64,000 nucleotides of DNA from Pollutibacter soli (GTDB lineage Bacteria; Bacteroidota; Bacteroidia; Chitinophagales; Chitinophagaceae). Shown piece by piece: positions 4,822 through 60,849 of the stretch. The notes below the pieces were generated by a model. It made no database searches. It had not been told where the DNA came from and saw only the letters and a program-made list of their open reading frames with translations. The position numbers were made by a program, and so were the translations under genes. Where the stretch lies: assembly GCA_029269725.1 (NCBI GenBank), contig JARJHS010000002.1, positions 62,001 to 126,000 of the forward strand. The letters run 5' to 3'. Positions within the stretch are counted from its first letter, which is position 1. The number at the start of each line of letters is the position of its first letter.

Positions 4822-4852
4822 CAGTTTTTGAGTTTTTTCATTTGCAATACAA

Positions 4853-6019
4853 TCAGCCGACTACATGATCGGTCCACTTTTCTTTTGAACTTCCACTGGC
4901 AACTACATTATCGATGAATGCCATTCCACGGATACCGTCTTCAACACCGGGGAAGTCGAGCATTTCAGGTGTAGGAGTAGTACCATCGATTCTTGCAGAA
5001 AGCGTAAGCGCAAAGTTTTTATAGATGTTTCCAAAAGCTTCCAGATATCCCTCAGGATGTCCGCCCGGAGTGCGGCAATTTGAAGTTGCAAAAGAAGAAA
5101 GATGTTTATACCCCGCACCTGCACGCAGAATCTGGGCAGGCTGATCCAGCCATTTTACGAGGAGGGTATTGGGTTCGTGCTGCGCCCATTCTACACCACC
5201 TTTTTCACCATATACCCGGATCTTCAATGCATTTTCTTCACCTGCGGCCACCTGCGAAGCCATCAATACACCTGAAGCGCCGTTTTCAAAACCAAGCAAT
5301 ACATTACCATCATCATCCAGCGCACGACCGTCTACGAATATGTTCAGGTCTGCACAAAGCTTAGTGATTTTCAAACCGGTAATATATTCTGCAAGATGAG
5401 CAGCGTGGGTACCGATATCACCGATACACCCTGCTTTTCCTGATTTTTTCGGATCAGTTCTCCAGGCCGCCTGTGCGTTGCCTTCTCTTTCGGAAAGTTT
5501 ACTCAACCAACCCTGCGGGTATTCTACCCACACTTTACGGATCTTTCCAAGTTCACCCGCTTTAACCATGGCTTTAGCCTGTTTCACCATCGGGTAGCCG
5601 GAATAGGTATGTGTTAGACAAAGAATAAGACCGGTTTCTTCGGCTTTCTTTTTCAGCTGCCTGGCTTCGTCAAGAGTGAAAGTGATGGGCTTCTCTACCA
5701 CCACGTGAAAACCATTTTCCAGCGCCATCATTGCCGGAGCAAAATGGGCGAAATTGGGCGTCACGATTGTTACAAAATCCATTCGTTGATCAGCAGGGAG
5801 CTTACTTTCTTTTGTAATCATCTCATCATAAGTGAGATAAGTTCTGCTCTCCGGGAGAAATAATGATTTCGCTGAATCTTTTGCGATTTCGGGATTGATA
5901 CTAAGCGCTCCGCAGCTCAGTTCAATTAATCCGTCCATATTAGCAGCAAGTCTGTGGATCGCGCCGATGAAAGCATCTTTGCCTCCACCAACCATTCCCA
6001 TTCTGAGTTTTCTATTCAT
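4853..6019 (-). CDS. Gfo/Idh/MocA family NAD(P)-dependent oxidoreductase
   Basis: 388 residues, cytoplasmic. N-terminal Rossmann fold with MVGGGKDAFIGAIH (9-22), the family EKP signature (Glu109-Pro111) and a C-terminal alpha/beta domain with GDIGTHAAHL, including Asp201 and His205, the usual catalytic pair. First gene of the minus-strand run. The region just upstream holds a tandem AAACCGGTTT-like operator. Probably oxidises or reduces a sugar or cyclitol hydroxyl; the substrate is unknown. Confidence 0.92.
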   Translation of the reverse strand: MNRKLRMGMVGGGKDAFIGAIHRLAANMDGLIELSCGALSINPEIAKDSAKSLFLPESRTYLTYDEMITKESKLPADQRMDFVTIVTPNFAHFAPAMMALENGFHVVVEKPITFTLDEARQLKKKAEETGLILCLTHTYSGYPMVKQAKAMVKAGELGKIRKVWVEYPQGWLSKLSEREGNAQAAWRTDPKKSGKAGCIGDIGTHAAHLAEYITGLKITKLCADLNIFVDGRALDDDGNVLLGFENGASGVLMASQVAAGEENALKIRVYGEKGGVEWAQHEPNTLLVKWLDQPAQILRAGAGYKHLSSFATSNCRTPGGHPEGYLEAFGNIYKNFALTLSARIDGTTPTPEMLDFPGVEDGIRGMAFIDNVVASGSSKEKWTDHVVG

Positions 6020-57765: not shown

Positions 57766-57821
57766 AGATTTTATATTTCCGGCTTATAGCCGTTCACTTG
57801 AGAGGGTTAAATTTACATCGC

Positions 57822-58247
57822 ATGCCGAATATTCAGTTTAATTATTTGATACCGGTTCCAGAACTTCTTCATCGCAGGGAGTTAAAATCTTTTCTGAAAA
57901 AGATGGCCAGTAGCGAGAAGTATTCGCTGATCAGCCTTCAGGTTATCTTTTGTAATGACGACTACTTATTGAAGATGAATCAGGAGTTTCTTGGGCATGA
58001 TTACTATACTGATATTATCACATTCCCCCTTAGTAAACCTGGCGAACCCATCGAGGCTGAGTTGTACATCAGTGTGGATCGGACCCGAGACAATGCTTCC
58101 GCTCTTGGAGTGTCCAGATCCAGGGAATTGCACCGGGTAATATTCCATGGATTACTTCATCTGCTGGGCTACAAGGATAAGTTAAAAACTGACCAGGATA
58201 CCATGAGGGTAAAAGAAGATTTTTACCTTGCCCGTTATAAAATGTAA
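57822..58247 (+). CDS. ybeY: Endoribonuclease YbeY (rRNA maturation)
   Basis: 141 residues from ATG 57822; a TTG at 57798 is in frame but adds no family sequence. Zinc motif HGLLHLLGYKD: His109 and His113 are kept, but the usual third His is Asp119, a substitution I recall from other Bacteroidota YbeY proteins. FLGHDYYTDIITFPL and the Arg/Glu patch are normal. Acts in 16S rRNA 3'-end maturation and ribosome quality control. Its stop codon directly abuts the next ATG. Confidence 0.93.
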   Translation: MPNIQFNYLIPVPELLHRRELKSFLKKMASSEKYSLISLQVIFCNDDYLLKMNQEFLGHDYYTDIITFPLSKPGEPIEAELYISVDRTRDNASALGVSRSRELHRVIFHGLLHLLGYKDKLKTDQDTMRVKEDFYLARYKM

Positions 58248-58913
58248 ATGTTCCACGTGAAACAATTGACTGGTTTAATAGTATTTATTCTTTTCGTATC
58301 TATAGCAAGTGGACAAGGGACAATGGAGTTAGAGGACCGTCTATTTGTGGTGAATGAAAAACGAGTTGAGAAAATTGACGAATACCTTGATCAATTTGTT
58401 TTTATTAACAACCTTGATAAGGAAGAACAGGAATTGTTCTATTGGGTCAATGTACTTAGAGCAAATCCTGGGCTGTTCCTCGAAAAATATGTTCGTCCAT
58501 TTCTTGAGCAGTTTCCAGAAGCCAGGGGCGGAGCATCACGGTCGCTAATTTCCGACTTAAAGAATCAGCCGTCTCTTCCTCTGATGGAACCGAGAAAAGA
58601 TTTGAGTGATATCAGTCGTAAACACACGAGAGACCTTGCGATCAACACAAACGGCATTTCACATTCCTCCAGCGACGGTAAGTCGTTCGCACAGAGAATG
58701 GCGGCAGAAGGAATTACATGTGCCGGGGAGAATATCCTCATTGGGAAAAGTGACGCCTTGAAAGCAATCATTTTATTGTTGATAGATGAAGGTGTGGCCA
58801 ACCGCGGCCATAGAAAGGCTCTCCTCAATTCCGGTTTTAATTTAATCGGTGTTTCAATTTACCCTCGCAAAGATGGGCAATACATCCTCGATCAGCTTTT
58901 TTCCTGTAAATAA
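58248..58913 (+). CDS. Secreted CAP (SCP/PR-1) domain protein
   Basis: 221 residues. Signal peptide (about 1-22, ending IASGQ) and a CAP-superfamily domain: ELFYWVNVLRANP, DISRKHTRDLAINTNGISHSSSDG, CAGENILIG and NRGHRKALLNSGFNLIGV, which include the cavity His and Glu residues. Function unknown. The first six residues (MFHVKQ) are encoded by a parS site, and a second inverted parS starts three bases after the stop, so the gene is exactly bracketed by the two sites. Confidence 0.9.
   Translation: MFHVKQLTGLIVFILFVSIASGQGTMELEDRLFVVNEKRVEKIDEYLDQFVFINNLDKEEQELFYWVNVLRANPGLFLEKYVRPFLEQFPEARGGASRSLISDLKNQPSLPLMEPRKDLSDISRKHTRDLAINTNGISHSSSDGKSFAQRMAAEGITCAGENILIGKSDALKAIILLLIDEGVANRGHRKALLNSGFNLIGVSIYPRKDGQYILDQLFSCK
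58249..58264 (+). promoter_or_regulatory. parS site 1 (ParB binding), inside the CAP gene start
   Basis: TGTTCCACGTGAAACA is a perfect match to the bacterial parS consensus TGTTNCACGTGAAACA. It overlaps codons 1-6 of the CAP-domain gene. Confidence 0.9.
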
Positions 58914-58915
58914 CA

Positions 58916-58931
58916 TGTTTCACGTGGAACA
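58916..58931 (-). promoter_or_regulatory. parS site 2 (ParB binding), upstream of mnmG
   Basis: TGTTTCACGTGGAACA is the exact reverse complement of parS site 1. It lies three bases after the CAP gene stop and 49 bp before the mnmG ATG. Confidence 0.9.
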
Positions 58932-58968: not shown

Positions 58969-58976
58969 TAATTTTG
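58969..58976 (+). promoter_or_regulatory. mnmG -7 promoter element
   Basis: TAATTTTG matches TAnnTTTG; the ATG at 58981 follows four bases later, implying a leaderless or near-leaderless mRNA. Confidence 0.5.
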
Positions 58977-58980
58977 CGCC

Positions 58981-60849
58981 ATGTTTCCTGAATACGATGT
59001 GATTGTTGTTGGTGCCGGCCATGCCGGATCAGAAGCCGCAGCTGCCGCTGCCAATATGGGATCAAGAGTTCTCCTGATTACCATGAACCTGCAAACTATT
59101 GGCCAGATGAGCTGCAATCCGGCCATGGGGGGTATTGCTAAAGGACAGATTGTGAGGGAAATAGATGCTTTGGGAGGCTATTCCGGCATTGTCACCGATG
59201 AAACCATGATTCAGTTCCGCATGCTTAACCGCTCGAAAGGGCCAGCTATGTGGAGCCCGAGAGCACAAAGCGACCGTATGTTGTTTGCCCAGAAATGGAG
59301 GGAAATGCTGGAGCAAACGTCAAATGTTGACTTCTACCAGGATATGGTTCGGGAACTTATCGTGAAAGATGGACGTTGCCGCGGCGTGAAAACAGGTTTG
59401 GGTCATGAGATTCTTTCGAAAGCTGTGGTATTAACTAACGGAACCTTTCTCAACGGCATTATTCATATTGGCGAAAAGAACTTCGGCGGTGGACGAATGG
59501 CAGAAAAAGCAGCAACCGGCATTACTGAACAACTGGTTTCACTGGGTTTTGAAAGTGATCGTCTTAAAACAGGCACACCTCCTCGTATTGATGGGCGAAG
59601 CCTCGATTATTCAAAGATGGAGGAACAGCCTGGCGATGAAGAAGTTACAGGTTTTTCCTACATAGGCAAACCCGCACTCGCGGGCAAAAAACAGCGCAGT
59701 TGCTGGATAACATATACTGACCGGAGCGTTCATGATACACTGAAAACAGGATTTGAGAAGAGTCCTATGTTTGCCGGAAGGATTGATGGGATAGGTCCCA
59801 GGTATTGTCCAAGTATTGAAGACAAAATTAACCGGTTTGCTGAGCGGGAAAGGCACCAGCTTTTCATAGAACCGGAGGGATGGAATACCATCGAAATCTA
59901 TGTAAACGGCTTTTCCACCTCTTTACCCGAAGATGTTCAATATAAAGCCCTTACCCAGGTCCCGGGATTCGAGAATTGCCGCATGTTCAGGCCGGGTTAT
60001 GCTATCGAGTATGATTATTTCCCGCCAACCCAGCTGAAATATTCGCTGGAAACAAGACAATTGTCGGGTTTGTTTTTCGCTGGCCAGATCAATGGCACGA
60101 CTGGATACGAAGAAGCTGCGTGCCAGGGACTTATGGCAGGAATCAATGCACACCAATACGTGACCGAAAGGGATCCGTTGATTCTTAAGAGAAGCGAAGC
60201 ATATATTGGAGTACTTATCGACGACCTGATCAGTAAAGGGACGCAGGAGCCTTACCGTATGTTCACTTCCAGGGCTGAATTCAGAACCTTGTTAAGGCAG
60301 GATAATGCGGATCTGCGCCTGACTTCGGTCAGTCATTCACTTGGTCTCGCTTCTGATGAAAGGATGGCCAAAGTATCAGCTAAACAAGGGACGGTAGCAA
60401 GACTTAAGTTGCTGTTCAACGAAATAACACTCCAACCTGAAGAAATCAATAACTACCTGGATTCGAAAGGCTCAGCACCGTTACAACAAAAACAAAAGCT
60501 GTCCCAGTTAATTCTTCGTCCGGAAATTTCAATTGAAGATCTCCTCAGGAACGTGGACTCAATTAAAGTCCAACTGGATGGAGTCGATAACGAAGCAATT
60601 CAGCAGACAGAAATTCAGCTCAAATACCAGGTTTATATAGACAAAGAAAAAGAACTCGTCACCCGGATGAGTAGTCTGGAAGATTTGGAAATTCCCGGCA
60701 GTTTTGATTATTCAAAGGTTCAGGCCATCAGCAATGAAGCAAGGGAAAAACTCTTCACAATAAAACCACGCACCCTGGGTCAGGCTTCAAGGATATCAGG
60801 CATCAATCCCAGCGATGTGCAGATCCTGATGGTTTATATGGGTAGATAG
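58981..60849 (+). CDS. mnmG: tRNA uridine-5-carboxymethylaminomethyl modification enzyme MnmG
   Basis: 622 residues, normal length. FAD-binding VVGAGHAGSEAAAAAA (9-24), signature CNPAMGGIAKG, TGTPPRIDGR and the GidA C-terminal helical domain ending INPSDVQILMVYMG. With MnmE it installs the cmnm5 group at wobble U34 of several tRNAs. Classically named gidA because of its place near oriC; here it is next to two parS sites. A terminator follows. Confidence 0.97.
   Translation: MFPEYDVIVVGAGHAGSEAAAAAANMGSRVLLITMNLQTIGQMSCNPAMGGIAKGQIVREIDALGGYSGIVTDETMIQFRMLNRSKGPAMWSPRAQSDRMLFAQKWREMLEQTSNVDFYQDMVRELIVKDGRCRGVKTGLGHEILSKAVVLTNGTFLNGIIHIGEKNFGGGRMAEKAATGITEQLVSLGFESDRLKTGTPPRIDGRSLDYSKMEEQPGDEEVTGFSYIGKPALAGKKQRSCWITYTDRSVHDTLKTGFEKSPMFAGRIDGIGPRYCPSIEDKINRFAERERHQLFIEPEGWNTIEIYVNGFSTSLPEDVQYKALTQVPGFENCRMFRPGYAIEYDYFPPTQLKYSLETRQLSGLFFAGQINGTTGYEEAACQGLMAGINAHQYVTERDPLILKRSEAYIGVLIDDLISKGTQEPYRMFTSRAEFRTLLRQDNADLRLTSVSHSLGLASDERMAKVSAKQGTVARLKLLFNEITLQPEEINNYLDSKGSAPLQQKQKLSQLILRPEISIEDLLRNVDSIKVQLDGVDNEAIQQTEIQLKYQVYIDKEKELVTRMSSLEDLEIPGSFDYSKVQAISNEAREKLFTIKPRTLGQASRISGINPSDVQILMVYMGR

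Follow-up and report, generated by a model that had tools for sequence, protein, structure and literature searches.

A probable origin-proximal parS centromere between ybeY and mnmG in Pollutibacter soli and its alternation with a nuclease-like gene in the Chitinophagaceae

Chromosomal ParABS systems, such as those of Bacillus subtilis, Caulobacter crescentus and Pseudomonas aeruginosa, combine a 16-bp palindromic parS site with a CTPase-type ParB protein and have a small number of sites located near the replication origin. For gut bacteria, including Bacteroides, the part of one report that we draw on describes parS clusters that coincide with the origin as defined by GC skew and not always with dnaA (PMC10197239). 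In P. aeruginosa, ParB is described, again in the part of the report used here, as also binding half-parS sites, which are single heptamers scattered in the genome (PMC10419367). The locus analyzed here lies in a 64,000-nucleotide stretch of the Pollutibacter soli genome (contig JARJHS010000002.1, positions 62,001 to 126,000), referred to below as the window. There ybeY is followed by a CAP gene and then by mnmG, and the relevant features are as follows (positions are those of the window).

57822 to 58247, plus strand: ybeY, rRNA maturation RNase (TIGR00043, 87.8 bits versus a cut-off of 45)
58248 to 58913, plus strand: CAP-domain ORF of 221 aa (PF00188, orthologues and start codons)
58249 to 58264, minus strand: parS site 1 (TGTTTCACGTGGAACA on that strand), lying across the CAP ORF start (sequence match)
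58257 to 58259, plus strand: in-frame GTG within the parS core CACGTG (start-codon comparison of orthologues)
58916 to 58931, plus strand: parS site 2, past the CAP stop and ahead of the mnmG promoter motif (sequence match)
58969 to 58976, plus strand: promoter motif TAATTTTG, which fits TAnnTTTG
58981 to 60849, plus strand: mnmG (gidA; TIGR00136, 829 bits), the conserved neighbor of parS

The ybeY reading frame as listed begins with TTG at 57798, and the ATG at 57822 is our choice of start; its stop codon directly adjoins the ATG of the CAP ORF. The CAP product matches PF00188 with 39.3 bits (gathering score 21.1), which places it in the CAP superfamily, scores below the cut-off for YkwD-type CAP proteins (TIGR02909; 32.8 bits versus 171) and has an N-terminus resembling a signal peptide. 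Both this match and the gene order agree with a preliminary description of the locus, made from the sequence, in which a single small CAP-domain gene was placed between two parS sites ahead of mnmG. The GTG inside site 1 is a possible alternative start for the CAP protein. The sequence TAATTTTG fits TAnnTTTG, which we take to be the Bacteroidota -7 promoter motif, and is likely to be the mnmG promoter. A TAnnTTTG motif was found within 60 nt upstream of mnmG at 92 of 119 loci, and at 5 of 119 after shuffling; these loci remained from 179 once duplicates had been dropped and a usable mnmG together with ybeY (or the ORF X described below) had been required, and many had been chosen via parS, CAP or X matches, so that proportions among them are not population frequencies.

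The sequence TGTTCCACGTGAAACA at 58249 and its exact reverse complement at 58916 constitute two perfect 16-bp parS sites in inverted orientation, as had been claimed. Site 1 has its core 2 bp past the ybeY stop and, in agreement with the preliminary description, runs over the ATG at 58248, coding for (M)FHVKQ. Site 2 has its core 50 bp ahead of mnmG; with the CAP ORF ending at 58913, 2 bases separate the two, and the site indeed starts three bases past the stop. The sites lie 667 bp apart and are the only perfect copies of the 16-mer in the 6.12 Mb genome (37 contigs), and the degenerate 16-bp palindrome TGTTYCACGTGRAACA likewise has them as its sole matches genome-wide. Many copies spread around the chromosome had been named as evidence against a centromere, and zero further perfect copies were found. 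Matches with 2 mismatches occur at 3 other places in the genome, versus 4 for a backwards control, while the 14-bp core GTTYCACGTGRAAC has 2 copies in the 64-kb window, both at the parS sites, with 0 expected. A missing ParB homologue had also been named as contrary evidence, and a search for parAB returned a canonical ParA-ParB pair, encoded on a contig other than that of the window. One ParB scored above the family cut-off. It is 307 aa long, its gene overlaps the end of the ParA gene, residues 45-245 align with solved chromosomal ParB proteins, and the AGERR motif and helix-turn-helix are intact. The sites are thus palindromes, few and clustered, in a genome with both ParA and ParB, and on these grounds we class them as parS. 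In six relatives (G113, G018, G022, G116, G169 and G114; G and L numbers are our handles for genomes and loci), parB and parS are separated by 22-38% of the chromosome, some genome lengths being rounded.

The position of the sites was found to be shared widely among relatives. CAP proteins from two genomes of the family are 100% and 99.6% matches to named records, a Chitinophagaceae bacterium (L126) and a Segetibacter (L151), respectively, from which we took the family to be Chitinophagaceae. The exact asymmetric 16-mer, a pattern that misses family members with other site forms, is present in 55 of the 195 Chitinophagaceae genomes searched. Stretches of up to 3 kb were fetched around a single site in each of 30 of these 55 genomes; 29 contained mnmG and one contained ybeY only. 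Cores were located only upstream of mnmG in 12 of the 29, both upstream and inside it in 14, and only inside in 3, and all 17 loci with an internal core include one at mnmG nucleotide 378-381. Three of the loci with intragenic cores (L009, L010, L012, L013, L015-L017, L023, L025-L028, L031-L034 and others) have another near nucleotide 1600. In a phylum sample, the degenerate 16-mer detected a site in 110 of 148 genomes. The phylum places fetched were the first among the matches listed, nearest kin first, and of 28 new ones 25 contained mnmG (site upstream in 18 and downstream in 7), one ybeY only, and two neither (L069, L072). Overall, parS adjoins or lies within mnmG, or else adjoins ybeY, at 30/30 family loci fetched and, among the matches listed, at 26/28 phylum loci. 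Four Chryseobacterium loci (L132, L160, L168, L173) have two perfect parS sites about 1.9 kb apart that flank mnmG, and a similar spacing is seen in many genomes of the phylum sample.

A second count was based on 80 named ybeY loci, 69 of which also have mnmG. With the 11 others left out, a site with at most 1 mismatch, located between the ybeY end and 200 bp past mnmG, was present in 58 of the 69. Of the sites at the named loci, 115 are located in the gap, 4 within mnmG or shortly past its end, and 3 elsewhere. Nine relatives were available in 1-4 contigs. The 14-bp core is present in six of them, all single-contig, where 20 of 21 cores are upstream of mnmG at a distance of no more than 2 kb and 1 is inside the gene; the other three (near-)complete genomes have no core parS. 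In the two other sampled members of the window's own genus, neither an exact parS nor a CAP match was found. At L178 (G004), L115, L157, L161 and L064 (G146), the site deviates in the parS core (e.g. CACGGG) and ORF X is absent, possibly reflecting drift of the site.

GC skew changes from minus to plus at parS in the three single-contig relatives analyzed, in each of which 20 stretches were sampled. The position of the turn extends from -30 to +110 kb in G113, from -112 to +38 kb in G018 and from -61 to +19 kb in G022, and a few stretches in G018 have the opposite skew sign elsewhere. It is from these relatives that we infer the origin position in this genome. The preliminary description had called the pair an origin-proximal centromere: its identification as parS stands by the sequence tests, as does conservation of the locus in the family, while the GC skew of the window's own contig is mixed. 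A cluster of DnaA boxes in the window was not clearly above chance (25 near matches with 18 expected; 6 of 100 shuffles had as many). Taken from sequence comparisons, the ybeY-mnmG parS locus is likely to be the origin-proximal centromere.

The reading that we favor, at a probability of roughly 0.8, makes the two sites the parS centromere of the chromosome itself, loaded with ParB near the origin, and the CAP gene a tenant there. ParB encoded on another contig would load at both sites near the replication origin. The usual family layout would pair a site shortly after the end of ybeY with another immediately ahead of the mnmG promoter, with some members adding one inside mnmG, and the CAP gene, often gained and lost, would occupy the space between the outer sites. 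Its 5' end overlaps site 1, so that the first codons would be constrained by the centromere and not by the protein. The sequence, position, conservation and codon constraint of the sites and the skew turn of the relatives were obtained directly; ParB binding, a role of this locus in segregation, and the incidental nature of any effects on CAP expression are what we infer from them. Weighing against this reading are the mixed skew of the window's contig and the DnaA-box count in the window, the distance of parB from parS in the six relatives, the relatives without a site (three of the nine, and the two congeners), and the stricter bracketing of long intervals with CAP described below.

The preliminary description had also suggested that the arrangement could silence or regulate the CAP gene and mnmG. 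In a form compatible with a centromere role, ParB spreading from the two sites would cover the CAP gene together with the mnmG promoter, silencing or timing their expression. Such an effect would fit the placement of site 1 over the start codon and of site 2 50 bp before mnmG, as well as the median distance of 59 bp between the final parS core and mnmG at 83 loci. There is also a precedent in P. aeruginosa, where ParB represses the neighbors of the intergenic parS3 and parS4 and not those of the intragenic parS1 and parS2, according to the portion of the study used here (PMC5521831). On the other hand, the introduction of the same paper states that a spo0J mutant of B. subtilis showed no significant expression change. 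The outer sites also keep the same median spacing to ybeY and mnmG whether or not a CAP gene is present. At parS loci with CAP (n=23), the first core is a median of 10 bp past the ybeY stop (22/23 within 60 bp) and the last core a median of 59 bp before mnmG (21/23 within 120 bp). At parS loci without CAP (n=60), the corresponding medians are 8 bp (43/60 within 60 bp) and 60.5 bp (50/60 within 120 bp). Because the spacing is the same with and without CAP, the outer sites appear to track ybeY and mnmG, with CAP filling the space. In addition, parS is equally frequent at loci with CAP (23/33) and without it (60/86), in the selected set of 119, and CAP orthologues persist at loci that lack parS (L107, L108, L116). 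Based on the mnmG tree (119 distinct sequences), CAP state changes at least 19 times; a tree-paired test of CAP against parS yielded 4 supported pairs only and has no power. Among intervals longer than 300 bp with at least two cores, both ends are occupied in 20/22 with CAP versus 10/22 without, a difference that favors ParB silencing and leaves room for some link between CAP and parS. A special device is not supported, and the bracketing would seem, from the sequences compared, to be largely a matter of anatomy that needs no regulatory device. We consider silencing or timing by ParB unlikely.

The overlap of site 1 with the CAP start could alternatively be maintained for the sake of the CAP protein, with CACGTG supplying a GTG start and FHVK the head of a signal peptide. 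The CAP search matched 83 of the 195 family genomes, in many cases through distant CAP domains alone, and ybeY or mnmG adjoins at 27 of the best 30 of these 83 loci, the window's included. The preliminary description had asked whether relatives keep the MFHVKQ-encoding site at the CAP gene, and 23 of 40 distinct orthologues examined have the FHV-encoding site, with FHV near the N-terminus; 14 are at the locus without FHV and 3 are elsewhere. Five of the 23 (L038, L043, L044, L046, L098) have no ATG, GTG or TTG before a stop other than the GTG within the parS core, which would suit a need of CAP for the site. However, histidine is always written CAC and valine always GTG, beyond what the protein requires: the count is 23/23 for each, compared with backgrounds of 0.32 and 0.22 in the rest of the genes, although the sequences are related and the count is therefore no true probability. 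The 14 orthologues at the same locus without FHV, and the first core near the ybeY stop in the 43 of 60 CAP-less loci, also argue against such a need, and because parS sites are found inside mnmG as well, coding overlap is not peculiar to CAP. The comparison of coding sequences is a clear indication that the CAP start is constrained at the DNA rather than the protein level, and retention of the site for the benefit of CAP appears improbable. Two of the 23 (L051, L052) have AAG for AAA, which breaks the parS core, and L058 has a second parS site inside the CAP reading frame. Finally, chance 16-mers or a mobile repeat can be dismissed as a practically negligible explanation of the two sites, since arithmetic gives about 0.003 copies of a given perfect 16-mer per 6.1 Mb on both strands versus the 2 found, and since their place is conserved across relatives; nothing was found in favor of this explanation.

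Where parS is missing, another gene, which we call ORF X (204 aa), is often present between ybeY (or CAP) and mnmG.

4835 to 5449 of locus L099: ORF X; also at L104, L107, L108, L113, L116, L131, L171 and L253-L271

ORF X was identified in 19 of the 195 family genomes, representing 17 genera, with one match (G046) weak and partial. At these 19 loci, it lies between ybeY (or CAP) and mnmG in 17, ends before mnmG in one and is a fragment in one; in three it is reversed. The 14-bp core was absent throughout all 19 genomes, which are 79-100% complete. Sampled members of the same genera without X have it in 12 of 16 cases, upstream of mnmG in all 12, and ten genera of the sample hold both states. 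The selected set of 119 loci divides into 83 with parS and no X, 24 with X and no parS, 12 with neither and 0 with both. X changes at least 17 times on the mnmG tree, and in nine supported independent pairs parS changes opposite to X in 8.0 on average and never in the same direction (sign test, median p 0.008, range 0.004-0.06). In a phylum sample of 395 genomes, 2 matched X, both Chitinophagaceae. ParB was present in 30/30 genomes checked. A change of ParB specificity in X genomes found no support: when 16 X genomes were compared with 12 sister genomes that have parS and with the ParB of the P. soli genome, no alignment column separated the two groups, a 60% majority being required in each. 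Within 100 kb of mnmG, G160 has 6 parS-like sites with 3 mismatches (1-5 in shuffles) and G066 has 4 (0-3), and GC skew turns at X/mnmG in G066 and is locally mixed in G160.

Searches with ORF X returned no Pfam family, nor any HNH profile up to an E-value of 1 (five members). Its structural model (mean pLDDT 87) has 24 matches among the predicted viral proteins of BFVD at E ≤0.001, including phage HNH proteins and intron-encoded endonucleases, with TM-scores to the query of up to 0.49; the best is an intron-encoded endonuclease (E 7.8e-8, TM 0.44). Nothing convincing was found among solved structures in the PDB. Residues H78 and N101 are invariant in 22 sequences, and a later motif is variable by eye. 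Phage sequences gave 19 records with partial matches covering 22-44%, a few of them annotated as HNH or 'endonuclease VII', and plasmids gave 5 partial ones, while none of 37 pattern matches in viral contigs was confirmed. In a test for transfer, distances correlate weakly (X-mnmG r 0.36, ybeY-mnmG r 0.50) and few branches are supported.

Upstream of X there is usually a split element that begins with a parS-like GTTYCACG and continues with CAC-A/T-GTTTC, some 5 bases that vary, and GAAAC. Several genomes have it as a near-perfect palindrome, roughly 47 bp long, with CGTGAAAC at its end. Examples start at position 1430 of L258, 1433 of L260, 5073 and 5169 of L107, and 2135 of L257. The pattern, composed after inspection of the X loci, matches X loci only in 355 sequences totaling 3.3 Mb, to which G066 contributes 480 kb and G160 200 kb. 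Of 25 distinct X loci, 19 contain the element according to the pattern and five others have a variant recognized by eye, while L268 lacks it. As judged by eye, a TAnnTTTG-like motif and the start of X often follow the element closely. Judging from its sequence, it may be an operator of X, a ParB-type site, or both.

These observations raise the possibility, which we advance tentatively, that the centromere has been swapped in part of the Chitinophagaceae, with X being either a selfish anti-parS nuclease or, together with the split element, a new centromere. In such a swap, X would replace parS at ybeY-mnmG, with one or two split elements directly upstream (TGTTYCACG, an insert with GTTTC-N5-GAAAC, and a GAAACA arm), and the DNA-binding domain of ParB would be retained. 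A selfish nuclease would aim at parS, so that intact sites would be lost and resistant ones left.

The ybeY-mnmG interval can serve as a gene-level landmark of the centromere, and probably of the origin, for a large family, and is usable in draft genomes; it also provides a case in which a centromere site extends over a start codon. Of greater importance are the exceptions. In ten genera, parS and a nuclease-like gene occupy one spot in different members, and this alternation opens to experiment the question of how the centromere sequence of a chromosome can be lost or changed with ParB kept. A literature search found neither parS at mnmG nor an HNH gene replacing parS in titles or abstract openings, the main parS survey (Livny et al. 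2007) being outside that search. As far as sequence comparison goes, the elements that appear new are the ybeY-mnmG home of parS (a prior description is possible), the start-codon overlap and, above all, the mutual exclusivity of X and its split element with parS.

Compared with known systems, ORF X resembles the HNH endonucleases of phages and giant viruses in its predicted fold and in H78 and N101, but differs from them in having no Pfam HNH match, in its location at the centromere locus and in having been found, in the samples searched, within the family only. The split element retains parS-like arms reminiscent of the half-parS sites of P. aeruginosa, as these are presented in the part of the report used, but here the arms are paired and enclose an inserted repeat that is fixed, next to ORF X (PMC10419367). 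With parS1-4 of P. aeruginosa, the locus shares the occurrence of some parS inside genes; there, the portion of the study cited indicates, ParB can repress adjoining genes (PMC5521831), while here the comparison of loci does not support regulation and the CAP gene comes and goes. The coincidence of parS with a turn of the GC skew, seen here in three relatives, is shared with the parS clusters of gut bacteria, again as far as the cited part of that report describes them, and the neighbors here are ybeY and mnmG (PMC10197239). Like other chromosomal ParABS systems, the locus has the 16-bp palindrome, the ParB type and a small number of sites, but unlike them its sites are held at ybeY-mnmG, with parAB 22-38% of the chromosome away in the six relatives, and one of them is positioned over a start codon.
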